Positions 28,191 to 46,204 of a DNA stretch of 46,500 bases are shown here, one piece after another (the stretch's first letter is position 1; the number at the start of each line of letters is the position of its first letter). Both the position numbers and the translations under genes were made by a program. Location of the stretch: assembly GCA_009602725.1 (NCBI GenBank), contig WELB01000067.1, forward strand, positions 309,830 through 356,329. The letters run 5' to 3'. The DNA comes from Spirogloea muscicola. Lineage: Eukaryota > Streptophyta > Zygnematophyceae > Spirogloeales > Spirogloeaceae. The notes under the pieces were generated by a model. It did not search any database. It was not told the origin of the DNA and saw only the letters and a list, made by a program, of their open reading frames with translations.

Positions 28191-28317
28191 CCGCGCCCAG
28201 CTGGTGTGGAAGGCCAGCCCACCGCGCCCTCCATTCATTCCTTTGTTCATTCTCTTTCTGTGGTGGCCAATCACAGCCGAAAACAAAAAAAAAAAACAAT
28301 TCACAGCCACCACCCTC

Positions 28318-28475
28318 AACTGGAAAGAAGTGGCTTTCCCAATGGGGGCAAGGGCTGTGAGAAGCCAGCCCGAAAAGAATTGACAAGGTTCGAAGGGGCC
28401 AAATTACGAGCAAAGCAGCGACTGCGGGGCCTGAAGAGGCTATGGCAGAACGGTGGAGGATGGACCAATGGACCA
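28318..28475 (-). repeat. Long dispersed repeat with GGGCTGGCTTCTCACAGCCC hairpin
   Basis: The reverse complement matches 44935-45075 over about 145 bases at roughly 90 percent by eye. It runs from CCGTTCTGCCATAGCCTCTT through TTGGCCCCTTCGAACCTTGT to the perfect inverted repeat GGGCTG/CAGCCC (28352-28371 in + coordinates) and CCCATTGGGAAAGCCACTTC. The right half also matches 30650-30745. Confidence 0.85.
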
Positions 28476-28900
28476 ATACTGGAAGGGCTGCCTCTTTCTT
28501 TCCTTTCAGCGCCTTCTCTCCTTTCTTCTTTTCTTTCGGGCTGGCCTCTCGCAGCCACTTCTCCTCGCAGCCATTGCCTTGCACTGGTTGAGAAACAGAA
28601 AGAGAGCCCTTCCAGACCTTGTCCATGCCTACGGGCTGGCTTCTCACAGCCACTGCTGTCAATTTGGAAGAGCCGTTTCTCAGAAAAAGACCTGTTGCAA
28701 ACCGTCATGCTCACATGAGGCCGAATGGGCCAGCCATCATCGCTGACGTCTGCTTCCGGGGGGCTGCGTGACGTTGACAGCATGACGGCATGAGGGCGGC
28801 CGGCCAGCTGGGACACGCGTCGCACTTTTCACACATGCTCACGCTTTCTGTTGCCTTGCAAGGCTTGCATTTGTCCACACTTTCGATCACCCGCCCTGGC
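28476..28900 (+). repeat. Forward hairpin repeats
   Basis: Two forward units: CGGGCTGGCCTCTCGCAGCC at about 28539 and CGGGCTGGCTTCTCACAGCC at about 28633, the latter followed by ACTGCTGTCAATTTGGAAG, which recurs at 43143-43165. No gene was recognised in this interval. Confidence 0.65.
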
Positions 28901-28982
28901 CGTACACGGACTGGGCGGGGGGGTTTTCGGGTTAGGTGGGCGGTCCCGTGTGCACGTGTGCGCGAGGGCAGCGCGGTGGGGG

Positions 28983-29019
28983 TGACGTCAGGGCAGGGGT
29001 CACCGTCCCGCTGACGTCA
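28983..29019. promoter_or_regulatory. Two TGACGTCA palindromes 29 bases apart
   Basis: The bZIP/CRE-type palindrome TGACGTCA occurs at 28983-28990 and 29012-29019, with a related GTGACGTTGAC near 28768. No gene start is near, so function is unknown and chance within a GC-rich repeat is possible. Confidence 0.35.
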
Positions 29020-29234
29020 GGTCAGCGGGGCTGCAGGGAAGCCAACCCCCGCGCTCCCGTGACGGGGGCTGACACGGGTTGATTGCCTGTGTTACCGATA
29101 ATTTTAGTCAGTAATGGCCGGCGAGGCGGAGGCTTGGGAGGTGGTTAAGCAAACCGCAGTTTTTGAGCGACCCCCAAGTGCCAAGTGCCAAGTGCGCCGG
29201 GCCACGCTGAGGTATGCAAGAAGAAAGCGCGGCC

Positions 29235-29870
29235 AGATTGACTGGTGGCTGTGAGAGGCCAGCCCAAAGGAATGGACAAGGTCTGAAAGAGCCGGAGTGC
29301 TAAGAGCGCGCTCGAGCGAGACCGCCAGCCTCACGCGAAGTACCTGGGCGAGGGAGCCGGCAGAAGAGAAAGGGCTCGCCCATTGAAAACAGGGGCTGGA
29401 AAAGCCAAAAGAGGACGAACAAACTACGAGAAGGGATGCAAGAAGGGCGCAGCGCAGCGGCGCCGGGAGGGCAACTCAGGACCTCACTCTTCCTCCTTCC
29501 TCCTATTACAATTCCAATGCGAGGCCAGCCCAAAAGAAAGGACGATGTATCTAGAAGAAAAAAGAAGTGACCAGTAGAAGTTCTTTCTAGAGCACATGAA
29601 AGAAGCTCCTCCAAAAGGGGCGATGTCTGTCAAGCTTTGGGCTGGCCCTTTGCACCCCTGAAATCTTTGGATGGCTGTGAAAGTAAGGTAAGCTCGACCA
29701 AAGAAAGTGGAGCGAGGAGCTGTAAAAAGCAGCCCGAAATTTAGGACAAGGTCTGGGCGTGCCGGACAGCGGAGAGCTGTGAAAGGCCAGCCCAGAGACA
29801 AACAGGTCTTCAAGAGTAAGAGGGAGCGGCCAGCCCAGAAAAAGGAGAACAAAGGACGACGGAAGTCCAG
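29235..29870 (-). repeat. Cluster of inverted hairpin repeats with a LINE C-terminal relic
   Basis: Minus-strand hairpin units lie at about 29245-29270, 29370-29405, 29520-29540, 29718-29745, 29767-29800 and 29828-29850, and one forward unit near 29642. At 29290-29350 (-) the frame reads GSLAQVLRVRLAVSLER, directly followed by the tail TTTCAGACCTTGTCCATTCC and a GGGCTGG hairpin. No intact gene is present. Confidence 0.7.
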
Positions 29871-30440
29871 AGCACGTACGCGGATGCTCGTTCGCTCGCC
29901 GGTCTGAAATGAGAGCCCCCGCCTGGTGGCCGCCTGACGTGAGCACCCAGGCTGGCGCCCTCCTGCCCGTTCGGGGGCCTCGTGACGGCGAGCGTGCGTG
30001 TCGGTTAAGCCACCGCCGCCGCGGGAAGCGGGGCGGCACCGATCCCCATGTACCACAGATTCTTTGTGCCTTGATCGGCACGGCTCCCCCCCATTTGCAG
30101 CTGGCCTTCTCTCACACGGGCACGGGGGCGGGGCCGGCGGGCGCGCGACCCGGGCGGTGGGCTTCCACCACGTAAGTGGATCTCACCACATGCCGCGGAA
30201 AGCGGGATGAGAGGCAAATGCATGAGCGAAAGAGAAGAAAGCTCCTCCATTTCCCGCAGCCGCTCACCTACCGATGTGCGCGCATTCACTACTCCAGGCT
30301 TTCATTTGTAACGGGCTGACCATTTCTCGTTCTTCACAAGGGTGCGAGCCCGAAAAGGAAATGACAAGGTCCGAAGGGCCGATCTGCTCGCCACCAGGCA
30401 GAGATGCTCGCCGGCTCCGACTCCTCCAGTCTTTTGCCAG
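29871..30440. other. No gene recognised
   Basis: Open frames exist on both strands but none shows a domain or consistent splice structure. The GC-rich stretch 29925-30180 is flanked by repeat clusters. Confidence 0.35.
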
Positions 30441-30860
30441 CCCCTCTTCTTAATTCTTTTCGGGCTGGCTTCTCACAGCCCTTGCCCCCATTGGGAGAGC
30501 CGCTGCTTCTTCTCTATGGGCGAGCACTTTCTTTTGAGCTGGCCTTTCCCAATTCTTTTCGGGCTGGCTTCTCACAGCCCTTGCCCCCATTGGGAGAGCC
30601 ACTCTATTTCCCAGCCCAAAAGAAACTACCTACCCTCCGACTCCTTCAGACGCTGCTTAGCTCGTAGTTTGGCCCCTTCGAACCTTGTCAATTCTTTTCG
30701 GGCTGGCTTCTCACAGCCCTTGCCCCCATTGGGAGAGCCACTTCTTCAGACCTTGTCAATTCTTTTCGGGCTGGCTTCTCACAGCCCTTGCCCCCTTTGG
30801 GAGAGCCACTTCTTCTATTCTTTTGGGCTGGCCTCTCCCAGCCACCAGTTAATCTGGCCG
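30440..30860 (+). repeat. Array of five hairpin units in direct orientation
   Basis: GGGCTGGCTTCTCACAGCCC occurs at 30462-30481, 30561-30580, 30700-30719 and 30768-30787, with a variant GGGCTGGCCTCTCCCAGCC at 30825-30843. Most are followed by TTGCCCCCATTGGGAGAGCC. Spacing varies (99, 139, 68 and 57 bases), so this is serial insertion or local duplication rather than a regular satellite. The unit at 30700 carries the longer upstream part CTGCTTAGCTCGTAGTTTGG. Confidence 0.9.
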
Positions 30861-31009
30861 CGCTTGCTTTTTCTGGTGGCGAGCACTTCCCTTCTTTCTT
30901 CTCCCTTCTTGAACACTTACACCCACTTTTACCAATGTATTTAAGATAAGCGCACTGTTCGAGGAACAGCCCTCGCAAAGTAAGGCGCTGTTTGCAAGAG
31001 GCCAGCCTT

Positions 31010-31490
31010 ATCGTAACAGTGTCGCCCAGCTGTCATTTCACGATACGCCCCAAAAGCGAGTGGGCAGCAACGGGAGCGACGACGGGAGCGGTGAAGTAGC
31101 GCCATCTAGAAATTGCACTTTCACAAAATAAGGCAATGGCTGCGAGAGGCCAGCCCAAGAGGAATGCACTGGGCTGACGCCCCAACGGCCCGCTCATGGA
31201 CGGTCGGCCTGTGACGGGAAAACGTCCCGCAGGCCGCTAAGCTCAACCACTCTTAAGTGCCGCAAGAAGCTGAGCAGATTGATATCAATTAGGCCTTTGA
31301 ATTTCTCCCACCCTCCTCGCTCCACCCCCAACCCCAACCCCCCTCCCCGCCTGCCGGTAACAGCACAGTACAGGCGCCTCTCCTTCGGCCGGCAGCCGGC
31401 CACCCCCTCCCCCTCCTGTCTGCAGGCCGCCCTCCCCCCCCACCTCCCTCGCCTCCTCCTGCGAGCCGCCTCTTGCTCCTCCATCGCCAT

Positions 31491-31521
<31 letters not shown>

Positions 31522-31642
31522 GCAGCCGGCGCCGCATCGGCGGCCTCATCGCTCGCTCTCTGCGGGGAGTACGACGGACTTCCATCTGCCGTCGCATCTG
31601 AGCGCAGCCGTCGCGGCCCAATCTGGCGCAGCGCCGCAAGTG
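31010..31642 (+). other. Upstream region of the membrane protein gene
   Basis: It begins with an inverted hairpin remnant at about 31138-31165 and becomes C-rich, with a GCC run at 31496-31525. The run is open in several frames, so an upstream coding start cannot be excluded. Confidence 0.4.
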
Positions 31643-34173
31643 ATGGTCCACTGGCCGCGGCGGTGGAGGCGCGCCGCCTCCCGCAGCGCCGCCGCCACCG
31701 CACCGACGAAGAAGAAGGCGCCGCCGCTGCCGCCGCCGGCAGCGCAGTCGTCCTTCTCGGCGGCGCCGTTCGTGTACCTGGCCGCCGGTGCGGCCGCGCC
31801 CGCGCTGCTGCGCTTCGTGCCGGAGGAGTACAGCCGCGAGGCGTCATCAGCGGTGCTGCCGCCGCCGCCGCAGCTCCTGCCCTCCTCCGATGGCGAGCTC
31901 TCGCCCGCCGGCGGCCAGCCCCCGCTGCTGGAGGCCCCCGCCTTCGGCGCTGGCGGCGGCAAGAAGCGCGCCGGCGGGCTGCGGCTGAGCATGGTTGTGC
32001 ACCACGTCGTCATGGCCGTCGTGCCGGCGCCGGCGCTAGTGCCGACGGCGGCGGCGGGAGGTGGCGGCGGCTGCTCCTGCCTCGTCTCACGGCTGCTGCG
32101 CAGTAGGCCCCCCCAGCAGGCGACCATTGCAGTGGCAGTGCTCAGTGGCCTGCTCGCCATGGCAGCCTTCGCCAGCACCGACAGAGGCCTTGGCAGCGGC
32201 GGCGCCGGCAGGGCCACGATGCGGCTCACCTCCATGCTTCTGGCCGCTGCTTTCCTCACCATCCTGGCCTTCTGGCTGTCCCTGTGGGCGCTGGCTGCCC
32301 GGCGGCAGCACCGGCAATTTGGCGACAGGCCTTTGACAGCAGCGCCGCCACCAGCGGCAGCGTCGACCAAGGCGGACGACGACGAGGACCGCAAGCTTGC
32401 GACACTCTCGCACGTCAACGTGGCCTCCTCCCATGAGCTCGCAGGGACTCGCGGCGGCCGCCACAGCCGCGACAGTGAAGCACCTTCTGTGTACGTCTGC
32501 CGCAGCTTGCCCATCAGCCCGCTGATGCAGCCGGTGGCAGCCATTAGAGGGGTCGACGCCGGCGGCAGCCACGCCAGCGGTGGCAATGCTGGCAATCAGC
32601 TGGGCGGCAGCGTGAGCGCCTCGCTGCCCTCGTCCCCGACAACAGGCGGCTGCCTGTCTTGGCAGCGCAGTGCCGCGTCGTACTCGCGTAGCTATGACCG
32701 GCCCCTGCTGCGGCCCGTAACGCCGCCGCCGCTCAGCCTCGCCGGCTCGCCTCCGTCTCAAGCCGCCGTAGCCGCAGCCGCTGAGGACAACGCCTCTGGC
32801 TCCAGCAGCAGCCTCTCTGACAACACCGGTGAGACTCATCACAGCTAGCACGGCTCGGCCATGGCTTATCAAGTTGCAAATTTTTTTTCTCAATCTTGCG
32901 TCTTGCTTGATAGTTTTCAATCTTGCATTGACCTTAATGTTGCTAACCCATTCGGGCCTGTTCACCTGTTTCGCTGCAGATAACGTGCCGGAGCTCGCGG
33001 CATCCTCGGCCACTGTGGCGCTGTCCGCGATGGAGAACGCAGCCACTGGGGCGGTGGACATGCCCCCCAATGTCCTCGTTCGAACGAGCTCGGAGCCGGA
33101 TGTCCATCGGACGCCGGTCAAGAGGCACCACCGCGGCTTCCGGCGGCTCTTCCGGCCGTCGTTGAGGGCCGCGCTAGACGTCGCAGACCGGTCAGCATCA
33201 CCGAGGTCCTCCATAGCGGCAGCTGCCACAGCCAGTGCCGCTGCTGGTAGCGGGGGCGAGTCGTTGCTGCCTTCGTCGCCGATGGCAACACGCAGTGCAC
33301 CCAGCAGTCCGGCAGTGCGGCGTTGGAGCCGCCATGCGGCGGCTGCTGCCGCTGCTGGGCCGCCGCCAGCAACGGCGTGCGTTGCTACGCACTTCTACCA
33401 GAGCCGGAGGGCAGCAGCGGCTGTCGCGGCATCAGCAGAGGAGCTTGCATCGCCGATGGCAATGGGTGGCGAGCGCCGCCACTCGGTGGCATCAGCGGTG
33501 ACTCGACTCCAGGAAGGCTTCGTGCTGCCAGCCGCCTGCTCTGCAGCATCACCATCTGCAGTCTCAGCCGAGAGTCCTGCTGCAGCTCCTGTCACGGCCG
33601 CCGCTGCGGAGCCCCCGCCGAGGCAGAGCCGGAGCGGCATGGCGTTGGCGCTCACGCTGGTCGTCGTGCTCAGCGCCCTCTTCCTCGGCCGCATCCCGGC
33701 AGTCGCTGCTGCCGTGTGCGTCATCGTGCTCGCCAGCCGGGTGCGGGGTGCGGAGCCGCTGTCATCGTCGCCACCGCCAGCAGAGGGCGACGTCGCTCCC
33801 TCCCCGGAGCAACGGCAGCTGCTCGCCGGTCCTGACGGTGCCGCCACTGGCGCAGGCCGAGGCAGGCGGCGGCTCCAGGCTGTCCCCGAGGGCCACCATA
33901 GCGAGGGCAGCAACCTGCAGAGCCGCTTCCGGTCTCCAATCGCTGACATCCTGCAGCACAGGTACTACCTCCTTGCAGCGCGACCATCGTCTTCGCTGCT
34001 TCGCCAGCCGCCATGTAGTGGCACCTGTCCTCCTGCCACAGCTCGTCCTGACCTTGGTTTGCCTGTGCAGCCACACCACGGACCCATCAAAGCAGGCGGT
34101 GCTGGCCGGCCTGCTCAGCCGCGAACAGCATGGACCTGCTGCCGGCCCTGCTGCAGCCGCATACCTGCGGTAG
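31643..34173 (+). CDS. Ala/Ser-rich membrane protein of unknown function, 3 exons, about 756 aa
   Basis: Model: 31643-32828, 32980-33961, 34071-34173, with GT-AG introns and consistent phases. I do not recognise the family with confidence. Hydrophobic segments lie near residues 160-180 (ATIAVAVLSGLLAMAAFAS), 197-220 (MLLAAAFLTILAFWLSLWAL) and 615-650 (MALALTLVVVLSALFLGRIP onward). The segment between is Ser/Pro/Ala-rich and probably disordered, with RTSSEPDVHRTPVKRHHRGF as a basic patch. The end reads DPSKQAVLAGLLSRE. Some plant membrane proteins end in a similar (S/D)P..K..V..GLL.R motif, which is only a hint. Reading through the second intron instead gives a different, less natural C-terminus stopping at 34199. 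The start is the first ATG in the frame after the C-rich leader and is uncertain. Confidence 0.65.
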
Positions 34174-34807
34174 CTGGCGATGTGGCTGGCTGCAGCTGAC
34201 AGCCTCCTCCCTCCCTCCTCTTTGTCTTTTGGCTCCCTCCATCTTCTCCTGCCCTCCCTCATCTGTCCCTCCACGTCCTGCCTCCCTTACCCCTCCTCTC
34301 CCCCCCTCCATGCAAATCATTCCCTGTACTCCCGATCACTATACTTGCAAGTGGCCAAGCAAAGAGTTTGGCCATTGCAGACCTGTCTCACTATTTTACT
34401 CATTGTATCTAGCAGCGCAGTGCCAACCCTTGTGCCTGTATGCCCATTTTTTGTGGCAATAAGCATTCTTTACCCCAGTCCTTTGCCTCTCATTTGCGTA
34501 CCAAAATTTGGACATGTCCGTGCATGGCAAAAATCACGTGCATCCGTTCATGAGTGGAGGACCCTTGCACTGCAAGTCACTTTGGCTAATTACAAGCACC
34601 CAGCACAGCAACGCCGACCAGGCAATCCACGCTCATCTGATTTGCAATACTGAAGTGTCTGTGGTGCGTACCCCGTGGAAGCTACTGATAACAAGAAAGT
34701 TGGTGAGACAAGGAATATGGCACTGATGTGATTGACAGATGTTGATACAAGGCGGCTACTGCATCTAGTCTGGTCCTAAGAGAAGAAGATTATGAGCAAC
34801 CAGCAAC
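34174..34807. other. Convergent intergenic region
   Basis: It lies between the stop codons of the membrane protein gene and the AP-3 mu gene. The left part is pyrimidine-rich. TTACA at about 34590 is a TGTAA polyadenylation-like signal on the minus strand, 215 bases beyond the AP-3 mu stop. No exon was recognised. Confidence 0.4.
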
Positions 34808-37577
34808 TCAGAGCCGGACCTCGTAGTGGCAAGCAGTGGTACTGTGAAAGCTCTTGGCAGGGTGATGTGGTGCGGTGCTCGCTCCGCGGCCGCCAACGTG
34901 GAGCCGCTCGATGTGCACGCCCGACAGCGACGCGCCCGGCACGCGAAACTCCACGGCAATTGCTGGTGGGAAAGTTGGTGGCGCTGCATTGGGCGCCAGG
35001 CGCAGCACCGCCGCCATCGATGGCACACCCTCCTTGGGCAGCGTGCCGAGGCGCCATGTGCAGACCTGGAAGGCAACCATGGTTTACTTCAGGCAAACGG
35101 ACTGATAACAATTCTCACTGACTGCTAGTACAGTGGCCGTCTAGCTGCAGCTTGAATGGGACTTGATTGCTTGCCCGCTGCGCCGCACCTTGGTCAGAGG
35201 GTCGAAGTTGGCAGCGCCGTGCGTAGTCGAGAGGTCGGCCGCCACGACGGCAGTGTGGGCAAACGGGACGCGCACGACAATGCCATCGGGACTGGCAGCA
35301 GCGGCGGCGCCCTTGCGCCCCATCGTGCCCCGTGAGCCGACGATGACAGACAAGTGGCCGTCGCCCCCAGCCTCGAACCTCAGCTGGGGCTTGACGTACA
35401 GCGGCGGCGCGCTGGCCAGCCGCCGGACCCTAGCAAGGAGCGGCACGGTAGACCAAGTCGTTGCTATGGACTGTTGTCAGCCCAGCTTCATGGCAAGGTT
35501 CTGCAGAGCAGGATTGTGTACTTTTGATCTTCAGCGCCGCTGCCGCTGAAGTTGTACTTTATCTCCAACTATTGAAGTCCAGGCCAAAGCAAATCCTCTC
35601 AACAAAGCATCAACCTGCACTAATCTCACAATTAGAACCTGGGTCTACTTGACTTGTAGCTTGTGAATCACCTGTATGTCATGAGCTTGAAGGTGCCGTC
35701 GGGTGGGACAAATGAGAGGCGGCGATCAGCCTCCCAGGCGCGGAAGCGCACGCAGGGGTGGAAGGCGACGTCGTCGAGCAGGCGTGGCTGGGTGAAGGCC
35801 AGCGTCACCTCCGGCACGCCCGACAGGCGCGACGTGCACCGCACCTCGCCGACTGCTTCACACCGCAGCAGAGCGCCGTCCCTGCGACCATGGGAAGTGG
35901 GCCTGCTGCGTCAGCTTGGATTTCACTATTGAGGACTAGCCCAAGCAAAGACATATGACATTGATTCTGATTGTGTTGAGTTTGACTTGATTGTTGCACC
36001 TGCCAAAGACAGCATCGAGGCGGTCGTGCAGGTCAGCTTGAATGTCATTGGCGGCACGACGAACGCCCGCGCTGCGCCAGGGGACCATGGATGCTGCGGC
36101 CTCAGGGAGCGCGACAGCTGCCGCCGCACTCCCACCACTGCCGGTGACCACGCTGATGACGCGCGACATCAAGGTTGGCGGCGGCACAATCTCCTGCAGA
36201 ATGCTCAAGGAGCCATCTTCCTTAGTACGTCAACATGGACAAGTAGTGTTGTGGCTTGCAAGATCATACATACAGAGTTAAGGATTACGCATGACAGCCA
36301 GAGATCCGAAGAGATTGAAGTACATGCTGGAATTCCAGATGATTGAGATGACCTTCAGGACGTTGGGCTCGGTGGTGAGAGGATAGCCGGCGTCGACCAT
36401 CTCATCAAGGAGTTGGTAGAGAGTGGCATAGTGGTCGCGCAGCAGGTCGTCATTGAGGCCGCCGAGGTACTCCGTCACCACGTCTGCAATGCGGCGCAGA
36501 AACTGCAAGGAAGCGGCGCAGAGCTTGGAAAGGCCGCAGTAGCCCCTAACATGTTGCAAAGGCCAAGATGGCGCTTCACAGACCAAAGTGTGCCGTTTCT
36601 TATGTTGGTTAACAGTGTTGTGATCAGCAAATGAGCTTCCCAGGGCTAAGATATGTTTGATTGAGTAAGAAATTTTGGAACTAGACTTGATATGGAAGGC
36701 TCCAAGGCTTACAGGTAGGCCAAAAATCTCGTTCACATGCTAAGCGGTACACAGCAATATGACTGTCGAGTGCGCAGTGGGCTCAATGTTGGGTTCGCTT
36801 GCCTCGAGTACGAGCAGCGGTGGCATCTCGGCGCGAGAGGTCGCCAGGAAGGAGAGCGGGCCACGCTCAAGGTGCGCTACGTAGTAGCGCGGCGACACGA
36901 CCACCGCTGAGAGCTGCGCGCAGCTTACGGCGGCCCAAGATGCGCAACGGTCACGACTGCCACGTCTGGCCTTGGGAGGCATAAATTTAGAGCTAAAATC
37001 TCTATTCAAGCCCAGGCCCTCATACAAAACCTGAGCAGTCTGGGTGCGCTCATCGCTTGCAACTGCAAGCTTGTTGGATGTCTTGCTGGCCTGTGTCAAC
37101 AGAGGCTGCGGCGGAACAGGCTAAGGTGGTAGGAGCTCCCACTCACTTGGGCTCATGGGCTCTTGGCCATGGCGAGCTTGTGCGGCCTCAATGGGTCCCG
37201 GAGGTGCGGGCTCTTACGGGCTCTGGAGGGAGCAGCAGCTGCTGCTACTCCTGCTAACTGTGACTGTATAAAGTTAACCCAGTCTTTCGACCAATTTTCA
37301 ATTGCAACTTAACGTCTAACCCTGAACCTGAAGGTCTAGCGGTGGTTGTCACCTCACTGGGAGGCCCGAGGCCGGAGAACCAGGCGCACACGGCTCGCTC
37401 GATTGGCGGCCCGCCGCACTGCTTCTCAAGCAGCACCTCCCTGCGCTCATCGGCAGCACCGCAGCAAGCGTAACAGTCAATGAGGCGGCCAGCAAATTAG
37501 CTGCGCCGCAGCTGCAGGAGCTCTCCACCTTTCTGGCCATACCCGCCGTCGCCGATGATGAAGATGGCCTGGATCAT
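34808..37577 (-). CDS. AP3M: AP-3 adaptor complex medium (mu) subunit, 8 exons, 428 aa
   Basis: Model on the minus strand: 37577-37543, 37440-37353, 36913-36803, 36502-36353, 36193-36000, 35881-35672, 35429-35189, 35065-34808. Phases agree and the length is close to the usual 415 aa. The N-terminal longin-like domain reads MIQAIFIIGDGGEVLLEKQC, ERAVCAWF, MPPLLVLEFLRRIADVVTEY and LLDEMVDAGYPLTTEPNVL. The C-terminal mu homology domain reads WRSAGVRRAANDI, LDAVFGRDGALLRCEAVGEV, FHPCVRFRAWEADRRLSFVP, PPLYVKPQL and ends VEFRVPGASLSGVHIERL. AP-3 sorts membrane cargo from Golgi/endosomes to vacuole-type compartments, with mu reading tyrosine-based signals. The intron after exon 3 has a GC donor (GAG|GCAAGC). 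Exon 1 is only 35 bases, so automated prediction may miss it. Confidence 0.93.
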
Positions 37578-38000
37578 GGCGCCCCAACTGGCGCTGGCAG
37601 GCCGACGGCAACACCTTGACGGCTGTATCACGTTAGGTTTTGTGGGCTCCTCGTGGGCTCCTCAGGCTGTCGTCGGCTGCTGAAGGCAGCTTCCAAGCAG
37701 CTGCGGCCATGGCCCTTTGCATCGGCGGGCTTGGCTTCCAGGTGCGAAGCAGCTACCACCGCGCAGCCGTCACACCGCCGCCAAGGCAGCCATCGCTGAC
37801 CACAGAGCCTTGTGGCTTCGACTTCCGGGGCCAGCCACGCCGCGGCTGGCCCCAGCGCCGGAGCCGAGGGGAAGGCAACTGGGGGTTGTGAGCAGGGGTA
37901 CCAATTGGGTACAAACTGGGTACAAATGGGTCCAGGGGTACAAATTACGCACAAATGAACGCTCATTTCTACCAGTGGAAACGAAGGGGGTGAGCTGTGT
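37578..38000. other. Upstream region of AP-3 mu; no gene recognised
   Basis: GC-rich with short open frames lacking domains. It contains the GGGTACAAA tandem tract at 37896-37946. Confidence 0.4.
37896..37946 (+). repeat. Degenerate GGGTACAAA tandem repeat
   Basis: Four or five units of about 11-14 bases, such as TTGGGTACAAAC, TGGGTACAAAT and AGGGGTACAAAT, in 51 bases. Confidence 0.75.
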
Positions 38001-38004
38001 TCAT

Positions 38005-38145
38005 TCTTTTCTGGGCTGGCTTTTTCCAGCCCCTATCCTCAATGGGCGAGCCCTTCACTCTGTGTTGCTGGGGCCGGCCTTTCACAGCCATCGGCCCCAT
38101 ATTCATCTCTGTTGGGCTTGGCCCTTCACAGCCATTGCTTACATC
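38005..38145 (+). repeat. Hairpin repeat units
   Basis: CTGGGCTGGCTTTTTCCAGCCCC near 38010 is followed by TCAATGGGCGAGCCCTTC. A further GGCCGGCCTTTCACAGCC and GGGCTTGGCCCTTCACAGCC follow, related but degraded. Confidence 0.75.
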
Positions 38146-38147
38146 TA

Positions 38148-38290: not shown

Positions 38291-38479
38291 TTCGTCAGGA
38301 GGATTGCTTTCCAACTGCTAGTCTTACAGATTTGCGGCTCCTCACTCAAGAGGAGCCGCAAGATGACTAAGTAACTCCTCCGACCGGGCAAGCTCTGAAG
38401 GGATGAAGCGATGAACAAAGTTAGAAGGGGCCAGTAAACGAGAAGGGACCACTAAACAGCACACAGCGATTCGATTGGC

Positions 38480-38560
38480 CACTAGGTGCTCAATATCCCC
38501 TGTTGAGCAGCCGCAGGTCAGAGAAACTGATCTCCGGGTACATTCAAAGAGCCATTTCTT
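38480..38560 (-). repeat. Inverted LINE tail fragment
   Basis: GTGCTCAATATCCCCTGTTGAGCAGCCGCAGGTCAGAGAAACT matches 46025-46070 (CACTCAGTAACCCCTGCTAAGCAGCCTCAGGTCAGAGAAACT) and, inverted, 15265-15310. Confidence 0.75.
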
Positions 38561-39319
38561 TCTATTTTTAGTGAAACCAAAGGCTATGCCGTTGGAGGCA
38601 GGCGACAGTGGTTGACTCGATCAACAAGTCGATTACAGATCAAGAATTTGGGGTCATCCGGGTGGCTATGAGGAGTTTTTGTTGGCTGTGGAAGCCTCAC
38701 TGGGCATGTCGTTCGGTTTACTGTCGTAGTAGCAGCAGCGGCGGCAGTAGTGGTAGCGACGATGCGGGGGCCGAAGCAGATGCGGAGCTGGGTCACACCG
38801 CGTGCTGGTCGGGCGGCTCTCAGCGGTTCATGAGGCAGCGCCGTCGTGAGCCGTCGAGCGTCGCGGAAGCGACCCCGCGCCAGTGCCCGGTGGATCGATT
38901 GGCTCCCTGCCGGCATGATAGGAGAGCGTGACCCGAAACCAAATGATCTAGCCATAGACAGGTTGAAGAGAGTTCTGACGAGCCTTGGAGGACAGAACAC
39001 ACGGTATGTGGCTAAAGCCAACCGGAAGACAGGCTGATGTGCCCCGCTGCTTGTCGCAACATCCCATATCGGTGCACCATGGCCGTTTGCCCACGTCTGT
39101 GCTGTCGCTGCTGCTGTTGTTGCACTAGCTGGGGCCAGGCGCGGCTGCTTCTCTCGGCGTGCAGCTTGTGACCTGCAGCTTGTGAGTGTCCTCCTTTTGC
39201 AGCAGCAACGTAGCACGCAATCCGACAGTGTCATGGCCACGTGCCTCCTTTGCTCCACTGCAGGGGCCACGACGACTGCCGCTGCAATTGCCACTTGTCC
39301 ATTGAACGGTGCGACGGGT
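38561..39319. other. No gene supported
   Basis: A 236-codon minus-strand open frame (38584-39294) has no recognisable domain, low-complexity Ala/Thr runs and no supported splice partners. It could include an exon of an unknown gene. Confidence 0.35.
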
Positions 39320-39392
39320 TTCGGTTTTAGGGTTTAGGGTTTAGGGTTTAAGGGTTTAGGAGTTTAGAGGTTCAGGGTTTAGGGTTTAGGTG
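39320..39392 (+). repeat. Interstitial telomere-like tract
   Basis: Three near-perfect TTTAGGG units in a row (GTTTTAGGGTTTAGGGTTTA) are followed by degenerate AAGGGTTTAGGAGTTTAGAGG units and GGGTTTAGGGTTTAGG. Confidence 0.92.
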
Positions 39393-39546
39393 GCATGGGC
39401 CGTCTGCTCGTGATTGATGGCGGCCCCTCTCAGGCCTCTAAGAGGCCTGCCGCATTCTCACCACTGGCTGCTGCTACCTTTCCTGCCCCTGAGCTGCCCG
39501 CGCACTAGCCATGGTTGGTGCAGGGCAGCCCGCACCTTGTGCAGGC

Positions 39547-39783
39547 TCACCTCACCTTGCAGCCTGGCATCAGACGGTGATTCTGGAAGTGCACCAGGTG
39601 CGTCCCAGCAAGCTGGTGCTGAGGGCCGCACTTGCTCGTGAGCTCTGATTTGGGCGTCTGCATCAGCGCCTGCGCCCAATTGACGACCTGCGAGCAGCGG
39701 TCGAGGCCGCCAATGTCAGCTGTGCCCAATTTTGCGACAACGCCACTCATACTTGACGACTCGCTCACGGCCAGTGCTCGCTA
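39547..39783 (-). other. Candidate coding exon of an unrecognised gene
   Basis: On the minus strand an acceptor (GTTGTAGCTAG) near 39784 and a donor (GCAAG|GTGAGG) near 39547 bracket an open frame of about 78 codons. It includes VVAKLGTADIGGLDRCSQVV, NWAQALMQTPKSELT and GPQHQLAGTHLVHFQNHRL. The composition is protein-like rather than repeat-like. I could not find convincing partner exons in 38.6-40.9 kb and do not know the family. Confidence 0.4.
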
Positions 39784-40937
39784 GCTACAACCTCAAGAGT
39801 GGCCCGCCACCCACTTGGTATGTCCTGGGCCATCGATCCCACTGCCACCCTCAAATGGTCGGTTGTGCCACGTGATTGCGCCTCGAGATGATCATTGCAT
39901 GCTTGCCAACTATGAGAGAGGTGAATAGTAAGGCAGTGAACCGCGCAATGCATTGTTAAAGACTCCTGCAGTTGGGCGCAGGCTGAGGCGAACGACCTCA
40001 TTATCGTTACGCACTTGATGTGGCTGCTGACTTCACCGAGCGGCCAGCCGAGTTGCACTCTGGGTGCGGACCGGGATATAGTGACGTATGCTCTTTCAAG
40101 TCAGTTGGGCTTGCACTCGAGGATCTTTTCAGTGCTGCACTTATTCGTGGCAAGTTTTGCAAACTGTCGACTAACAACTCTTTGGTGCCTTTTAGCACTG
40201 GCACGACTGCTGACTGAAAGACTGGCCACCGCTGATAGAAATCACCTCCTGCCCACCAATGCTTTGACGCACTGGCACACGGTGTCTCCTTGCTCGGAAT
40301 ATTTTCAGCGCACACAGTTGAGCTTCTTCTTCAAATAGTTGGAGCTATATTCACACCTTCACATGCTTTTCCTTTTTACACCTTCACATATGTTTCCTTG
40401 CATATATGAAGCCTCGCCCAAGATGATGAAGCTAAACTCCATCCTGGCCGAATCTCTATTTGTTGAGCGATCTGTGGAACCCATAACGTAAGAATCCATG
40501 CTGCATCTTGAACGCCTGGCTACCATATGGCATGACTTGCATGGACCAATGCCTGAAGGCGACAAAACAATTACATTGTTGTACAACGTTGCAAGTCATG
40601 ACCAAATTCATGGAAGTCGATACTGAAAGGAAGATTCTGTCAATGGCGAGCTTGACGAATGAAATTCAATGTAGCTGTCAAGGAAGAATGAAGGGGACGA
40701 AGCGGGCAAGCCCACAAGGAGACCACTGCTACCTTGGCAGCTGCGGCAGGAGTAGCGGCTGCTGCCGCAACAAACGGCGGCAGTGGCTGAGATGGTGATG
40801 GTGAAGCTGCCCTGCTGCATACAGGTACATCGCATGTGTTTGCTGCATGCAAGAACAGCGCCAGCAGCAGCGGCTATCCTGGCAGCGGCACTGCTTTCAC
40901 GACAGCAGTGGCTAGGCAGGATTGCGAGGTGCCACGT
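39784..40937. other. No gene supported
   Basis: Short open frames only. A possible minus-strand exon at about 40743-40822 (acceptor TGTATGCAG, donor CAAG|GTAGCA) is too short to judge. A CAG/CTG-rich patch lies at 40860-40915. Confidence 0.35.
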
Positions 40938-41426
40938 TCACACCGCCATGGGTGAGGCGCGGCGCGGCGTCACTTCCGCAATCGGGGCCATCATCGGGCG
41001 ACGGCGGCCCGAAGCGGCCGCGGCGGCGGCGGCTCTGCCACTGCATGCCGCGCAGGAGAAGAGGCTGCGCCGCTGCCGCTGCCCAGGCACGTTGCCGCCA
41101 CCACCGCAGGCTCCGCAGTACACGGCGCCGCAGCCGAAGCAGAAGGCCCGGCAAGCAGTGCAGGCCGCCGAGCCGCAGGCGTCGCAGCCCGACAGGCAGT
41201 AGCTGCACAGCTCCGGCGCGCCGTCCGTAGTGGCGGCGCAGCAGGTGCAGGGCCGCAGCCCAGGGCTAGGCAGCTGGCAGCGGCCGCAGGCAGCCATGGC
41301 AGCGGCCTCCTCCTGCGCCTGCAGCGGTGCGCCAGGAGAACGACCATGGCGGCCCAATACAGTTGGGATGTGAATGGGCTGTAGACGGAATCTGAACGAC
41401 ATGGAAGTGGAGTCCACATCGACCAT
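40938..41426 (-). CDS. Siva-like cysteine-rich protein, about 162 aa
   Basis: A single open frame reads MVDVDSTSMSF at its start and has a Cys-rich zinc-binding-like core at roughly residues 43-130. Visible Cys pairs are CGRC, CTCC, CSYC, CDAC, CTAC, CFGC, CGAC and CAAC. The order ALCG..CR.CFGCG.VYC...C followed by an F.C..C pair resembles the C-terminal Cys-rich domain of Siva (CD27-binding, apoptosis-regulating in animals), for which plant and algal relatives of unknown function exist. This assignment is from memory and moderate. The frame stays open upstream to an ATG at 41714, but that part overlaps an inverted ACTGAG-tail repeat and contains an unknown base at 41572, so the internal ATG at 41426 is preferred. 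The tail after residue 130 is Ala/Arg-rich. Confidence 0.6.
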   Translation of the reverse strand: MVDVDSTSMSFRFRLQPIHIPTVLGRHGRSPGAPLQAQEEAAAMAACGRCQLPSPGLRPCTCCAATTDGAPELCSYCLSGCDACGSAACTACRAFCFGCGAVYCGACGGGGNVPGQRQRRSLFSCAACSGRAAAAAAASGRRRPMMAPIAEVTPRRASPMAV

Positions 41427-41639
41427 GGCTGGCGAGCGGGGCGCATGGCGTGTGCGGAGGCCTTGAGGCGCGCACCTGGGCGGAGCCCTGCAGGGCGGCG
41501 GCGCGCACCGGCCGCATGGCGGCGGGCGATGGGGGTGGAGGCGCCCGCCTGGCCTGCGAGCCCGACGCGGANGCGGCGGCGGCGGCAAGGCGGCGGCCGA
41601 CTGGCGGGCTTCTGGGGGGAGGGAGGGAGGGAATAAGCG

Positions 41640-42020
41640 TGCATTGGGAAAGAAGGGTAGGCCAAAGTCGGCCACGTACAATACGAAGTGCACCTGTTGG
41701 CGTGCATTACCCACTCACTGCTCAATTGGACCAGCTCAGCGACCACGGGTCAGCACATAGAGGTGGCTGATCGATGCCTGAATACCGGATGTCAAGTCGT
41801 AAATCGCAAGCCTTACGCCACCGATCTAGAAGTGGCTCTCCCAATGGGCAAAGAAAAGCCAGCTCGGAAAGAACTGACAAAGGTTCGAAGGGGCCAAATG
41901 AACGTCTAGAAGCTCGCCCAGCTTCTCTGGCGCAAAGGTGAGCCTGAGCACGTTGCAAACAGGCCGACACACGGCATCGCCAGAACGAACAGACATGTAG
42001 CTGGCAAGCCCATCTCGAAG
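41640..42020 (-). mobile_element. Inverted LINE-type 3' end upstream of the Siva-like gene
   Basis: Reading the minus strand: the relic GLASYMS/RVSACLQRAQA (about 41945-42015), an interposed hairpin unit (41826-41905, GGGCTGG-type with TTCGAACCTTTGTCA), GGTATTCAGGCATCGATCAGC, TGCTGACCCGTGGTCGCTGAG, and GTACGTGGCC near 41670. It parallels 15790-16018. The tail ends about 220 bases upstream of the Siva-like ATG. Confidence 0.72.
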
Positions 42021-42234
42021 CACGTCTGTGCGTCGTGCATACAAATGCATAGCCAAAATTGAGCAATTTTCTCGAGGAGGTTGTGACATCGACGACCTAT
42101 GCAGCCAGGTGGCTTGGGAGGAGGGAGGGAGGGGCGGGGGTGAGAACCCGTAGTCTGCCAAGTGGACCCCCTTCGCCCGGTTGGCCGGACGGAGGAGGGA
42201 GGAACAAGAAACTAGCGTAATTGTGAATTGAACG

Positions 42235-42345
42235 GCCAAAGAAGGCCGAGTACATCGGCAAGTACATCTGATGACGGAGATCACCCACTGCAAATGGTAA
42301 ATGACGCGCTCAGTAAATCACGGGTCAGCAAGTCAGGAGAGAAGT
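42235..42345 (-). repeat. Inverted ACTGAG-tail repeat copy
   Basis: The reverse complement contains TGACCCGTGATTTACTGAGCGCGTCA, GTGATCTCCGTCATCAGATGTACTTGCCGATGTACTCGGCC, related to the copies at 319 and 43445. Confidence 0.75.
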
Positions 42346-42700
42346 GCTCGCCCATAGAGAAGAGGGGCTGGCAAAGCCAGCCCAAAAAAGAATGGACAAC
42401 GTCCAAAGCCAAAGAAAGAGGAGCCGGAAAAAGGCCTACAGTACAAAACACTGCAGGAACACAGACGAGAAAGGAGTAGAGGCCCGCCCAACGAAGAGAG
42501 TCGACTAGGGAAAAGGCCAGACCAATCAAGTAAGCTTCCCTCCGCATCGTCTACGTGTCTTGTAGTGTTTTGTGGTGTAGTCCTTCTTCCGGCTCTCTTT
42601 CTTTGGCTTTGGACATTGTCCATTCCTTTTAGGGCTGGCTTTGCCAGCCCCTCTTCTCTATGCGCGAGCACTTCTTCTTGATCAAAGGTCGGTACTTAAT
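42340..42700. repeat. Facing hairpin repeats
   Basis: An inverted unit at 42345-42400 (GTGCTCGCCCATAGAGAAGAGGGGCTGGCAAAGCCAGCCC) faces a forward unit at 42628-42675 (GGGCTGGCTTTGCCAGCCCCTCTTCTCTATGCGCGAGCACTTC). The flanks also mirror each other (GTCCAAAGCCAAAGAAAGAG versus CTCTTTCTTTGGCTTTGGAC), giving arms of about 75-100 bases. A similar forward unit with the same flank lies at 44150-44260, and an inverted one at 45760-45860. Confidence 0.85.
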
Positions 42701-42999
42701 TCCTGGAAGGAAAGGTGGCCAGCCCACGTGATAGCCCGTCGGCCAAGCCCTGCGATCGCCACGTGGCGAGCGCGGCTCCATCCTCTGCGGGTCGTGGTGG
42801 GAGGGGGGCGGCACGCGGGGAAGGATGGGGGAGGTGGATCGCTCCGCAGAGGCTGCTGTCGAGGAGGGCGGCCAACGCCCCAGTCCAGCGCGGCGCTCCC
42901 CTTGTCCTTTTTGTCTTGTCTCTTCCGTTTTTTGTCGGGCCTTTCGTCAATGCCTTTTTGGGCCTCGGGAGAGCCCAATTTCTCCTTTTTGTCCGCACT

Positions 43000-43260
43000 T
43001 GTCCACCCTTTGGGCTGGCCTTTCCTGCTGACTAGAGGATACTGAGAGCCTCCTTGATGACGTCTTAGCGCGTAGTATCTTGCTTCTTGCACCATCCGGC
43101 CCTTTCAGACCTTGTCCATTCTTTTGGGCTGGCTTCTCACAGCTACTGCTGTCAATCTGGAAGCGCTTTTTGTGTTTTCCCATCCCAGCCCCTACCCTCT
43201 GTGGGCGAGCAATTTCTGTCTCCCTTTGAGAAGAAAGGGCTCGCCCATTTGAGAGAGCAC
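43000..43260 (+). repeat. Hairpin repeats with a LINE tail
   Basis: GACTAGAGGATACTGAGAG (about 43031) resembles GACTAGAGGTTTCTGAGAG at 45629. Forward units lie at about 43010, 43122-43142 and 43185-43215 (CAGCCCCTACCCTCTGTGGGCGAGC), and an inverted CTCGCCCATTTGAG box lies near 43238. Confidence 0.8.
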
Positions 43261-43384
43261 TCTCTTTGTCTCCCCCTCCCCGTTTGCAGCGGCTTGCACG
43301 GCGAGCCATCGATCGTCGGCAGGGTGAGCTGCCTGGCATTGATGCCGCCGGGTCGCTTGCCTAGGTGTGCCCGTATGCGGCTTC

Positions 43385-43795
43385 AATCTCCTTCCTTGCC
43401 AATTGCTGTCCGGTATTTGGGCATCATTTAGCGATTTCTATGTGCTGACTCGTGGTTATTGAGCAAGTCAGCTTAACAGCAGGTGATGTACATCTGTCTG
43501 CTTACCTTCGTACTTGGCCACATCGGCCCTCCATCACTTTATGCACACTCCACCCCTTCCTCCATCGCCTGGCTCTGCATGTCGATGCCGGCCGACGTAG
43601 TCGGGCGGGTAGCTTAGGGTGGTATTCTAGCGTCCCGCAAGCCATCGTTGCATGCTATAGAATGCGGCTTCCTTTGAATTTACAGCGCTCCCAGGCACTT
43701 GCGATACACCAGCGTGCTGGGCGTGCATTAGCCCAGGCTAATGTCGTGCCCGGCCTTATAGCGCCCACTACGCGTCGTCCACACCTGGAACTCCC
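43385..43795 (+). mobile_element. LINE-type tail followed by a second C-terminal relic
   Basis: CCGGTATTTGGGCATCATTTAGCG and GCTGACTCGTGGTTATTGAGCAAGTCAGC (43440-43470) begin the tail, whose GCTGACT/AGTCAGC ends are complementary; it runs to about 43545. A second fragment codes for RMRLPLNLQRSQALAIHQRA and GRALAQA at about 43660-43740. The order (tail first) shows two copies in series. Confidence 0.75.
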
Positions 43796-44149
43796 CATAC
43801 AGACCAAAACTCTACCTGACTTGCAGCAGCCTGCCCTGCATGGCCTCACTACCAGGTCAGCAGGCATGCAAAGAATGTGGCAAGAAGCATCACCACATCT
43901 TGTGACCGACGGCGGAGAGAGGCCATCTCTCTGCAAGTCCCTCGTTGGAGAAAGAACCTAGCGCCGCCGCCTCCGCAGCCGCCGGCAAGGGTTGGCAAGG
44001 GTTTGGCGCGCGCCGCGCAGGTTGACGCTCCAGGCCAGGTTGGCCAGGGACCGAGGCGGTGAGAGATCCCCGGCGGGGTTGACCACGCAGCGGCGCAGGA
44101 GGCGCACGCGAGTGTGAGGGACGCGAGGAGATAGCTTGTGATCCTTTTG

Positions 44150-44262
44150 TAGTGTAGTGTAGTCCTTCTTCGACACCTCTTCTCTTTGGCTTTGGACATT
44201 GTCCATTCTTTTTGGGCTGGCTTTGCCAGCCACTCTTCTCTATGGGTGAGCCCTTTCTTCTG
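44150..44262 (+). repeat. Hairpin repeat unit with flank
   Basis: TTCTCTTTGGCTTTGGACATTGTCCATTC is followed by TTTTTGGGCTGGCTTTGCCAGCC and CTCTATGGGTGAGCCCTTTC, the same arrangement as 42590-42675. Confidence 0.85.
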
Positions 44263-44660
44263 ATCAGAAGATCTGATCCGCCTTGTGACTTATACGGGTT
44301 GTACCCTACCCAGCGAGTCACCCCATGGGTTACCCCCGCTGAGGTTCCCTATACCACTTTCCCACCTGAGATATCCGACCAGGGTTAGCCCTGCTCGGTT
44401 CCGCCCAATCGCCCTCTAGCCGACGCTACGACGACGTCACGCGCCCGGGCATGACACTAATGGCTTCCGTGGTGGTGGTTTGGCTCCTCGGCTTAGCTGG
44501 TCAGATATGCATGTGCTCACTCGGGGATATTAAGTGTCCCCCTTAGCTAGCTCATTACCCCGTAACAGGGCATCTGTAAGGCTAGAATTGGCCTCACTGT
44601 CAATCTCATGCGAACACCGCGCCTTCTTCCAACCCATCGCCCTCTACTGGATGATTTCTT
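44263..44660. other. Unassigned block unlike the surrounding repeats
   Basis: It begins with the palindrome GATCAGAAGATCTGATC (44265-44281) and contains CGAGTCACCCCATGGGTTACCC, TAGCTAGCTCATTACCCCGTAACAGGG and no open frame of note. No other copy in the window was seen. It may be part of a terminal repeat or other element. Confidence 0.4.
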
Positions 44661-44679
44661 CTTATAATGGTTCCTAGGC

Positions 44680-44800
44680 TCACGCAGTGCACTTGCGGGC
44701 AGGCCATGCGATAGCTGCTGCTTCTGCGTCTCGTCGGGGTGCCTCTTTTCCAGCTCCGACTTAGGGCTGCTGACTCGGGGTTACTGAGCTCCTAGTCACT
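44680..44800 (+). mobile_element. LINE-type C-terminal end
   Basis: The frame reads AHAVHLRAGHAIAAASASRR, then GASFPAPT and a TAG stop at about 44760, followed by GCTGCTGACTCGGGGTTACTGAGC. It parallels HLRAGRALAAASGFRQGDVF at 27560-27620 (-). Confidence 0.75.
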
Positions 44801-44859
44801 GTAGTCTCTTGCATAGCAGTGTGATTTGGCGCCTTTCAGCCATTTGAACCTTGTTCATT

Positions 44860-45110
44860 CTTTCTGGGCTGGCCATTCACACGGGCAGCTAGTCTGTCGG
44901 ATTTGAGGCTCCTCACTCGTAACTACTGAGTGGTTCATCCTCCCCCGTTCTGCCATAGCCTCTTCAGGCCCCTTAGTAGCTGCTTAGCTCGTACTTTGGC
45001 CCCTTCGAACCTTGTCAATACTTTTCGGGCTGGCTTCTCACAGCCCTTGCCCTCATTGGGAAAGCCACTTCTTCATTCACAGACCCCGCCCCCTCTGGAA
45101 GAGCTCACTT
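44860..45110 (+). repeat. Long dispersed repeat with hairpins
   Basis: CTCACTCGTAACTACTGAGTGGTTCATCC (44912) is a tail variant with CTCACTC..GAGTG complementarity. The part 44935-45075 matches 28318-28475 inverted and includes GGGCTGGCTTCTCACAGCCC at 45027-45046. Another hairpin lies at about 44868. Confidence 0.85.
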
Positions 45111-45199
45111 CTTCCTTGTCCTTCCCTTTTTCCCCTGTACCAGTGGCCTTTTGGAACGCTGTGCGCTTTAAGCGCTTTTCTGGCCCCCTCGAAATGTGT

Positions 45200-45690
45200 T
45201 CGTTCTTTCTCTGGGCTGGCCGATCACAGCCTTGCCCTATACTGGAAGAGTTTTTCTCTGTCTTGTTTCATGTGGAGTACTTTCGTGCTCTTTGCGCCTT
45301 CCGGTCCTTTCAGGAGAGCAGGCCGATCTCAATGCGGCAGGCTCTCTCGCCCAGGTCTTTCATGCGCCTGTCAGTATTGCTGCAGCGGTCAATGGCACAC
45401 GCGCTTCATCTGCGTGCTGGTCGCGCTGTGGCTGGCAGCCTCTGGCAGCCTCTGTCCACTCTTTTTGGACTGGCCTTTTCCCAGCCCCTACCTCTGTAGG
45501 CGAGCACTTTCTGTGGCTATAGATAGGGAGAAGGGCTCGCCCATAGAGGATAGAAAGTGCTCGCCCTGAGCACTTCTTCCTGGGCGACGTCTTTCCGCCT
45601 GCTAGCTATTCAGATTCGCATCTACTGACTAGAGGTTTCTGAGAGTCCGCTTGCTGCTGTCTCAGTCCTTAGCACTCCAGCTCCTTCAGA
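45200..45690 (+). mobile_element. LINE-type 3' end with hairpins
   Basis: A hairpin at about 45215 and TATACTGGAAGAG at 45236 precede a coding relic (LNAAGSLAQVF, then shifted SVLLQRSMAHALHLRAGRA, 45330-45425). Then come GGACTGGCCTTTTCCCAGCC with GTAGGCGAGCAC (45467-45508), inverted CTCGCCC boxes (45533-45570), GGGCGACGTCTTTCCGCCTGC and the tail with GACTAGAGGTTTCTGAGAG to 45690. The last 110 bases match 27480-27590 inverted. Confidence 0.8.
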
Positions 45691-45960
45691 CCTTGTCTAT
45701 TCCTTTGGGCTGGCCTCTCCCAGCCACCAGTTAATCTGGCCGCGCTTGCTGTTCCTGAGAGAAGGGGGGGCTAGCAAAGCCAGCCCAAAAAACGAATGGA
45801 CAATGTTCACATCCGAAGAAAAGGGTGCCGAAAAACAACTACACTACAAAACACGAGATGATGCAGAGGGAAGCTCAGTACCCGCGAGTGAGCAACATCA
45901 AGTCAGAGAGATAGAGGATAGGGGGCTGGGAAAGGCCAGCCCAAAAACGAACGAACACAA
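45690..45960. repeat. Facing hairpin repeats
   Basis: The forward unit CTTTGGGCTGGCCTCTCCCAGCC (45706-45725) shares CACCAGTTAATCTGGCCGCGCTTGCT with 30845-30870. An inverted unit follows at 45768-45790 (GGGGCTAGCAAAGCCAGCCC) and another at about 45920-45945. Confidence 0.8.
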
Positions 45961-46004
45961 ATCGAGAGGGGGCCAGGGGAAGCACTAGGAAAAGCAAGCA
46001 CAAA

Positions 46005-46130: not shown

Positions 46131-46204
46131 GGCACGCAGGTGATATAGATATCCTCAATGAGCGGGCCCTTCTTTGTATAGATATGCGGTCCACCGGCTC
46201 TTGG

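Follow-up and report, generated by a model that had tools for sequence, protein, structure and literature searches.

Hairpin repeats of Spirogloea muscicola as the 3' ends of non-LTR retrotransposons of a probable restriction-like endonuclease type whose new copies appear to favor older tails

A 46,500-nucleotide (nt) stretch of contig WELB01000067.1 of Spirogloea muscicola (Zygnematophyceae; assembly GCA_009602725.1, positions 309,830 to 356,329 of the forward strand), called the window below, carries two clusters of a short hairpin repeat, and at its right edge a fragment of the protein-coding region of a long interspersed nuclear element (LINE). We examined what the repeat is and how its copies came to be clustered. 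Our reading, to which we give a probability of about 0.9, is that these hairpins form the 3' ends of non-long terminal repeat (non-LTR) retrotransposons, whose probable type is the restriction-like endonuclease (RLE) one, and that new copies, judging from a modest sample, tend to enter older tails.

The hairpin repeat and the LINE to which it belongs

The abundance of the repeat was examined in the window and in the genome. The pattern GGGCTG-N8-CAGCCC, with up to two mismatches, gave 27 window matches versus 7.04 +/- 2.43 in shuffled sequence, and none of 100 shuffles reached 27. A covariance model (CM) made of 20 tails gave 37 window matches at E<=0.1 and 29 at E<=0.01; two rows of the model are window sequences, both among the matches, and a few of the weaker matches are tail fragments with an incomplete hairpin. 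A preliminary description of this DNA had taken the repeat to be real and nonrandom, as these counts confirm. Genome-wide (153,112,186 bases in 471 contigs), GGGCTGGC-N3-8-CAGCC was found 27,877 times (14,039 and 13,838 on the two strands), versus 10 times (6 and 4) for the reversed control. An Rfam scan returned no match, and a tRNA scan of the window found no tRNA gene.

Some details of that description needed adjustment. Among the 11 start coordinates compared, six were exact (28352 on the minus strand, 30462, 30561, 30700, 30768, and 45027), but five were off by 1 to 4 bases and are now placed at 15387, 38013, 42632, 44214, and 45707. Both clusters that it had proposed are real, but matches at 15387 and 21063 fall outside the range given for them. 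Its two classes are real too, but tail types number at least seven in our reading (labeled A to G). The classes differ mainly at G7, which is unchanged while its partner is C or A, with no compensation.

The hairpin stands within a tail of about 60 nt with the layout (C)CTTGTCCATTCTTTT, hairpin GGGCTGG..CAGCC, and then ..ATGGGCGAGC.CTTCTTC; the upstream CTTGTCCATTCTTTT and downstream GGGCGAGC boxes reported earlier both belong to this longer conserved tail. Seven tails (types A, B [two], C, D, F, and G) were compared in 21 pairs. Their terminal 62 nt were alignable (z from 3.0 to 13.3), and the 3' untranslated regions (UTRs) upstream barely aligned (z from -1.4 to 3.4). The hairpin is thus kept across tail types whose 3' UTRs align poorly, which supports selection, and selection is visible on the hairpin sequence. 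The earlier proposal of a selected structure holds to this extent, the sequence being conserved as much as the structure. The proposal of compensated changes in the arms fails. The GGCTG/CAGCC core is nearly invariant, and the pairs C4-G17 and T5-A16 do not vary at all in the 20 tails. RNAalifold found none of five pairs with both sides changed in these tails. In the 7-bp helix, only the outermost pair was doubly changed, in one sequence, which was matched by 317 of 500 shuffles, and the covariation score was 0.044 versus 0.040 in shuffles, so no covarying stem pairs in excess of shuffles were found. The stem is therefore conserved as sequence, and since it hardly varies, the covariation test has little power. 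Slid helix registers paired 33 to 62% of the cells versus 87% for the modeled register, as is to be expected when a structure is derived from these same sequences.

We then followed the repeat outward. With 150 nt around the copy at 45027 as the query, 47 matches were listed, 40 of 2275 candidates having been scored. In 20 copies examined with their flanks, similarity ended sharply after ..GGGAGAGCCACTTCTTC, and on the other side it extended for variable lengths. The longer copies reached into an open reading frame (ORF) ending with ..ALAAASGFRQGDSLPAASLSDVRLLTRNY-stop (..LLTRGY-stop), and the ACTCG..TACTGA found upstream of many hairpins is the stop codon of this ORF. A scan for a stop-codon-like motif followed by the hairpin gave 97 rows, some of them antisense or off-register. 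Three longer regions (L051 to L053) were fetched, and one of them, L051, had an unbroken frame of 1386 codons, whose stop lies 90 nt upstream of the class II hairpin GGGCTGGCTTTGCCAGCCCC. In this frame (1386 aa, one copy), Pfam at E<=1 gave a reverse transcriptase domain alone (RVT_1 at 660-886, E 2.4e-13) and no APE endonuclease. A motif search located YADD at 820, C2H2-like fingers at 168 and 346, CxCx12Hx3C at 1156, and RAD..D at 1225-1242. The last two have a counterpart in the window:

46162..46500, plus strand: LINE ORF fragment with the CxCx12Hx3C finger and the start of an RLE-like motif (RRADLVAI..IIAD), running into an N gap; 85% to L051 over 46186-46500

This fragment had 150 genomic matches, the best 150 of 4760 candidates being scored. 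Searches of PDB sequences with the LINE protein gave no match. We conclude that the hairpin repeat is the conserved 3' terminus, of about 60 nt, of related non-LTR retrotransposons and not a free-standing hairpin family.

The way in which the copies were made was analyzed with type A tails. Type A copies on many contigs stop at one position, so the copy boundaries are consistent. The fetched DNA contained 84 distinct type A tail ends, of which 79 matched a 715-nt reference (one of the 79 is the reference itself) and 5 had no match. The 5' starts of the 79 copies ranged from 1 to 683 of the 715 nt, several lying inside the ORF, and nearly all copies examined were 5' truncated. Direct repeats of 7 to 12 nt flanked 25 of the 79 copies, a looser count that allows up to three tail letters in the repeat and includes seven copies without a usable 5' flank; when the flanks were re-paired randomly in 200 trials, the mean was 3.3 and the maximum was 8. 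In a strict count without tail letters, duplications of at least 7 nt were found in 18 of the 72 usable copies (random re-pairing, mean 2.5, maximum 7). The base preceding the duplication was C at 13 of these 18 sites, the background of C in the 5' flanks being 0.32, and pyrimidines made up 64 of the 90 first duplicated bases (five per site). The fixed 3' end, the 5' truncation, and the duplications together indicate target-primed reverse transcription. The repeat is thus mobilized rather than debris, as had been suggested, given copies that stop at one 3' position, begin at many 5' positions, and show duplicated target sites, but the mobilized unit is the 3' end of a LINE and not a hairpin element.

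Nesting of new copies in older tails

The window itself contains one case of a copy lying inside an older tail. It consists of the following features:

44881..45074, plus strand: type A LINE 3' end, 5' truncated (..RLLTRNY-stop, 3' UTR, hairpin 45027-45046, tail ..CACTTCTTC); 94% to the type A reference 522-715
44840..44882, plus strand: 5' half of the interrupted target element, ..CCTTGTTCATTCTTTCTGGGCTGGCCATTCACA
45075..45122, plus strand: 3' half of the interrupted target element, ATTCACAGACCCC..CTCTGGAAGAGCTCACTTC

The copy at 44881-45074 sits inside the hairpin at 44866, which it splits as GGGCTGGCCATTCACA|GACCCC, with the duplication ATTCACA. When the halves were rejoined into a 76-nt empty site, 42 genomic places covered the join (40 of 615 candidates scored), 40 of them at 86 to 96% and two at 81 to 83%. 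We infer that several of the clustered window copies are nested insertions into earlier tails, one of which is demonstrated by this case.

To see how common such insertions are, the flanks of 100 exact type A tails, of 1298 in the genome, were surveyed. Judged by eye, 21 of the 100 flanks begin at or just before the hairpin of another tail. The 5' sides were fetched for 20 of these 21 (L017 being the other one) and for 20 of the remaining 79, which leaves 59 without 5' inspection. Insertions within a hairpin, recognized from both sides, numbered 6 of the 100 (L075, L076, L077, L078, L082, and L083), and L089 lies at the 5' border of a hairpin. L076 was read from the table and is absent from the join test, which was applied to all fetched loci and covered 11 joins; nine of these lay within hairpins, and the other two lay at the 5' border. 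Another locus spanned the join in 10 of the 11 cases (8 of the 9 in-hairpin ones), and the best spanning alignment was gap-free within 10 nt of the join in 7 (6 in hairpins) and had one gap in 2. All nine in-hairpin insertions share the orientation of the target hairpin. A regular expression for antisense in-hairpin insertions flagged 2 of the 79 copies; on inspection both turned out to be sense, of type B/C, so this simple-pattern search leaves no antisense case.

The density of hairpins predicts an in-hairpin chance of 0.18% per insertion, and the probability of finding six is then 4e-8 (P values here and below were computed with n=101; the surveyed flanks are 100). The junctions were also counted with short words. 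The hairpin word CACAGCC (51,815 in the genome) occurred within 8 nt after a tail 140 times, and the control word CCTTGTC (38,277 in the genome), taken about 30 nt upstream in the same tails, did so 15 times, so the junction rate at the hairpin arm was 6.9-fold over that of the control. The hairpin loop (TGGC|YTTYCACAGCC; TGGC|TTCTCACAGCC and variants) presents a pyrimidine-rich context, like the sites used elsewhere.

Several observations weigh against this reading or restrict it. For the 21 hairpin-like flanks, the 5' side gave confirmation in only 7; in the other 14, the 5' flank lacked a matching hairpin, consisted of N, or was not mappable. No relative spans the join of L075, and a single one, with four gaps near the join, spans that of L077. 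Among the nine in-hairpin insertions, the duplication was at least 7 nt in four and 4 to 5 nt in four, and it was absent in L077; filler or a gap was found at the junction in L075, L078, and L083. At a fivefold local density of hairpins, the P value for six in-hairpin insertions rises to 3e-4, and the apparent preference is inflated because insertions enter regions rich in transposable elements. CTTCTTC|TCACAGCC accounts for 49 of the 100 CACAGCC junctions listed, and these could be tail tandems that arose from slippage or template jumping. In addition, 52 of 84 flanks had no hairpin, and the 84 tail ends include 20 loci picked for a hairpin-like flank. Targeting is thus a preference at most. 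The structural and protein evidence has limits as well. Covariation is absent, so an RNA structure, though plausible, is not demonstrated. For the 113-aa window fragment, structure prediction gave a mean predicted local distance difference test (pLDDT) score of 47, which made the model unusable for a fold search. Pfam gave RVT_1 alone and the PDB searches nothing, so the RLE assignment is a putative, motif-level one, made on one copy. Since 49 of the 100 junctions are a single string and 52 of the 84 flanks are free of hairpins, the preference for older tail loops, in the same orientation, is likely but loose.

How could such a preference arise? By analogy with R2 and with stringent LINE tails, the element's own reverse transcriptase (RT) may recognize the tail RNA as a template, the RLE domain would nick the target, and the UUC end of the RNA may help it to settle there. 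The loop itself supplies the context of a C followed by pyrimidines, at which new copies in the sample examined entered older tails in the same orientation. Taken further, one stem-loop might do two jobs, serving as an RNA mark for the element's own RT and, as double-stranded or extruded DNA, as the preferred landing site, with each insertion planting the next target and building nested safe havens genome-wide. We consider this extension rather improbable and offer it tentatively.

Other explanations of the hairpins were weighed against their being LINE 3' termini. The LINE transcript could use the hairpin as a signal for termination or for processing of its 3' end, and the RT would then not read it as a template tag. 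In every tail type read, the hairpin does lie close to the 3' end, beside a T-rich run, and it is conserved in sequence over structure; however, the conserved unit reaches the copied 3' end, as expected of a template tag (compare the 43-nt core of R2, PMC10499050), and we regard this explanation as doubtful. The many short copies, together with the known sharing of LINE tails by short interspersed nuclear elements (SINEs) in Chlamydomonas (SINEX families, PMC3747384), might also point to an independent nonautonomous element, a miniature inverted-repeat transposable element (MITE) or a SINE, riding on the LINE. The short copies can, however, be accounted for by truncation. Type A 5' ends, the only ones examined for constancy, are ragged, several lie within the ORF, and they show no constant head or fixed second end. 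The window also has no tRNA gene. Such an element is very unlikely. Decayed repeat debris with chance palindromes, which the many degenerate copies could bring to mind, is refuted by the excess over the controls (27,877 versus 10 reversed genome-wide, 27 versus 7 expected in the window), and its probability is practically nil.

The nesting, for its part, might be only apparent and result from recombination, slippage, or template jumping between tails, with no target preference. Tail-to-tail tandems exist, as at 30647-30815 in the window, CTTCTTC|TCACAGCC is a site of microhomology that makes up nearly half of the arm junctions listed, as given above, and two-thirds of the hairpin-like flanks (14/21) are unconfirmed from the 5' side. 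These processes do not easily account for the nine cases with both hairpin halves, eight of them with a repeat of 4 to 10 nt, or for the loci that span the join in eight of the nine, gap-free near the join in six; moreover, the window case has its 42 empty-site matches. We therefore think it unlikely that they explain the in-hairpin insertions, and retain a loose preference of new copies for older tails.

Other copies and features in the window

The remaining copies in the window were assigned to tail types by their match to the CM, to a type reference, or to both. Those of types A, D, and E in and around the first cluster, with further D and E copies, are as follows:

28325..28467, minus strand: type A LINE 3' end, hairpin 28352-28371; 96.5% to reference A, CM E=7e-13
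30446..30509, plus strand: type A tail fragment, hairpin 30462-30481; CM and reference match
30550..30603, plus strand: type A tail fragment, hairpin 30561-30580; CM and reference match
30647..30747, plus strand: type A 3' end, hairpin 30700-30719, unit 1 of a tail-to-tail tandem with a period of 68
30744..30815, plus strand: type A tail, hairpin 30768-30787, unit 2 of the tandem
30814..30871, plus strand: type D tail (GGGCTGGCCTCTCCCAGCCACCAGTTAATCTGGCC); 96.6% to D, CM E=1.6e-10
29222..29304, minus strand: type D LINE 3' end; 92.8% to D, CM E=2.3e-11
27477..28204, minus strand: decayed LINE with an ORF C-terminal remnant (28204-27548) and a type D 3' part (27580-27477) that continues into an N gap
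45541..45755, plus strand: type D 3' end, hairpin 45707-45726, the D reference; CM E=1.6e-10
28633..28676, plus strand: type E tail hairpin; CM E=5e-10, the sequence being a row of the model
43025..43168, plus strand: type E 3' end, hairpin 43126; 70% to D, CM E=3.7e-10

The decayed LINE at 27477-28204 matches the L051 frame at 83.5% along 388 nt and type D at 92%. Type A tail-to-tail tandems were also seen elsewhere, for example, at L076, and two pattern hits lie 112 nt apart on contig C3 and likewise on C6; the tandem pairs suggest template jumping or slippage at CTTC. Copies of types B, C, and I are as follows:

42341..42426, minus strand: type B (class II of the preliminary description) 3' end, hairpin GGGCTGGCTTTGCCAGCCCC; 91% to L051, CM E=3.7e-16
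42579..42674, plus strand: type B 3' end, inverted relative to the copy at 42341..42426; CM and reference match
44146..44252, plus strand: type B 3' end; CM and reference match
45760..45917, minus strand: type B 3' end; 78% to L051, CM E=1.2e-6
15281..15428, plus strand: type C 3' end, hairpin 15387; 89% to C, CM E=4.5e-10
37995..38059, plus strand: type C tail, hairpin 38013; 97% to C, CM E=1.4e-15
45911..46047, minus strand: type C 3' end; 82% to C, CM E=3.3e-7
45213..45256, plus strand: type I tail (GGGCTGGCCGATCACAGCC); CM E=1.6e-8, the sequence being a row of the model

The first two type B copies form an inverted pair (42341-42674) whose arms of 81 nt are 95% complementary and lie 174 nt apart.

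Apart from the LINE tails, the window contains a xanthine/uracil-type permease exon at 3244-3855 (PF00860, E 2e-10), a perfect tandem duplication of a 33-bp unit at 21320-21382, and degenerate interstitial tandem repeats of the TTTAGGG type, which we take to be plant/algal telomere-like, at 13055-13101 and 39316-39390 (the latter with 84% matches).

The genome was also searched directly for reverse transcriptases. Two loci were cut from the best RVT_1 matches, and one of them, L027 (G000:C170:276821-277303), was set aside because it reads as LTR-type, its long open frame having an integrase-like region; six RVT_1 hits tie for the top score, which suggests recent copies. In 20 regions downstream of genome RVT_1 hits, a search with a loose pattern returned five weak hits, none of them a convincing tail. 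As for the host, chlorophyll a/b-binding proteins are encoded in its genome (68 matches, 100 candidates having been scored), and one of these proteins matched 49 PDB sequences at E<=1e-80, nearly all chlorophyll a-b binding or light-harvesting complex (LHC) by name and presumably from land plants and green algae, in keeping with a photosynthetic eukaryote of the green lineage.

Relation to known retrotransposons

R2 and Utopia have an ORF with one or more N-terminal zinc fingers, a central RT, a C-terminal CCHC motif, and the RLE (PMC4640811, PMC10499050), and in R2 a 43-nt core of the 3' UTR was copied by reverse transcription no less well than the complete 248 nt (PMC10499050). L051 has the same order of motifs as R2 and other RLE-type LINEs (R2, NeSL/Utopia, R4, HERO, and CRE). 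Unlike in these elements, the type A sites read in S. muscicola are not one fixed host sequence; the LINE also has very many copies and shows a loose preference for its own tails. Dualen/RandI is a chlorophyte group of LINEs with an RLE (PMC4640811, PMC8226300), but Dualen also encodes an APE (PMC4640811), whereas Pfam gave none in the 1386-codon frame here. On its motifs, the LINE described here is not firmly placed in any RLE clade.

In its nesting, the LINE resembles Zepp and ZeppL, in which young copies insert into older ones and the arrays left behind consist mainly of 3' ends (PMC8226300, PMC3446292); the insertions found here are likewise nested in the element's own copies. Zepp is classed with L1, and in Coccomyxa each chromosome has one cluster of it, whereas the tails here are spread over many contigs. 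Also unlike Zepp, the preferred site here is the 3' hairpin loop, and Pfam found no APE in the one copy scanned. An APE endonuclease is a trait of L1, and the LINE was not filed as Zepp because the one frame scanned has none.

With respect to the tail, UnaL2 and plant LINEs have a conserved 3' end with a hairpin, followed by short 3' repeats, and in Chlamydomonas L1-1_CR and RandI share their tails with SINEX partners (PMC3747384). The tails of S. muscicola resemble such stringent-type tails in having a conserved 3'-terminal stem-loop across related elements, the 3' repeat here being TTC. The plant LINE hairpin shows compensatory changes, whereas the hairpin here shows none to speak of. A literature search, which did not cover Repbase and subscription journals, found no description of this LINE.

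The LINE tails explain much of the clustering of repeats in the window, and they warn annotators that such hairpins are not small-RNA genes or regulatory elements. With about 28,000 hairpin matches in 153 Mb, several tail types, and one terminal motif, S. muscicola offers a tractable LINE system in which tail-in-tail insertions allow events to be ordered relative to one another. For the most part, the RLE-type LINEs that are known insert site specifically (PMC4640811). If the LINE described here is of this type, it appears to have adopted its own tail as a favored target, and the coupling of target choice and template recognition would become directly testable.

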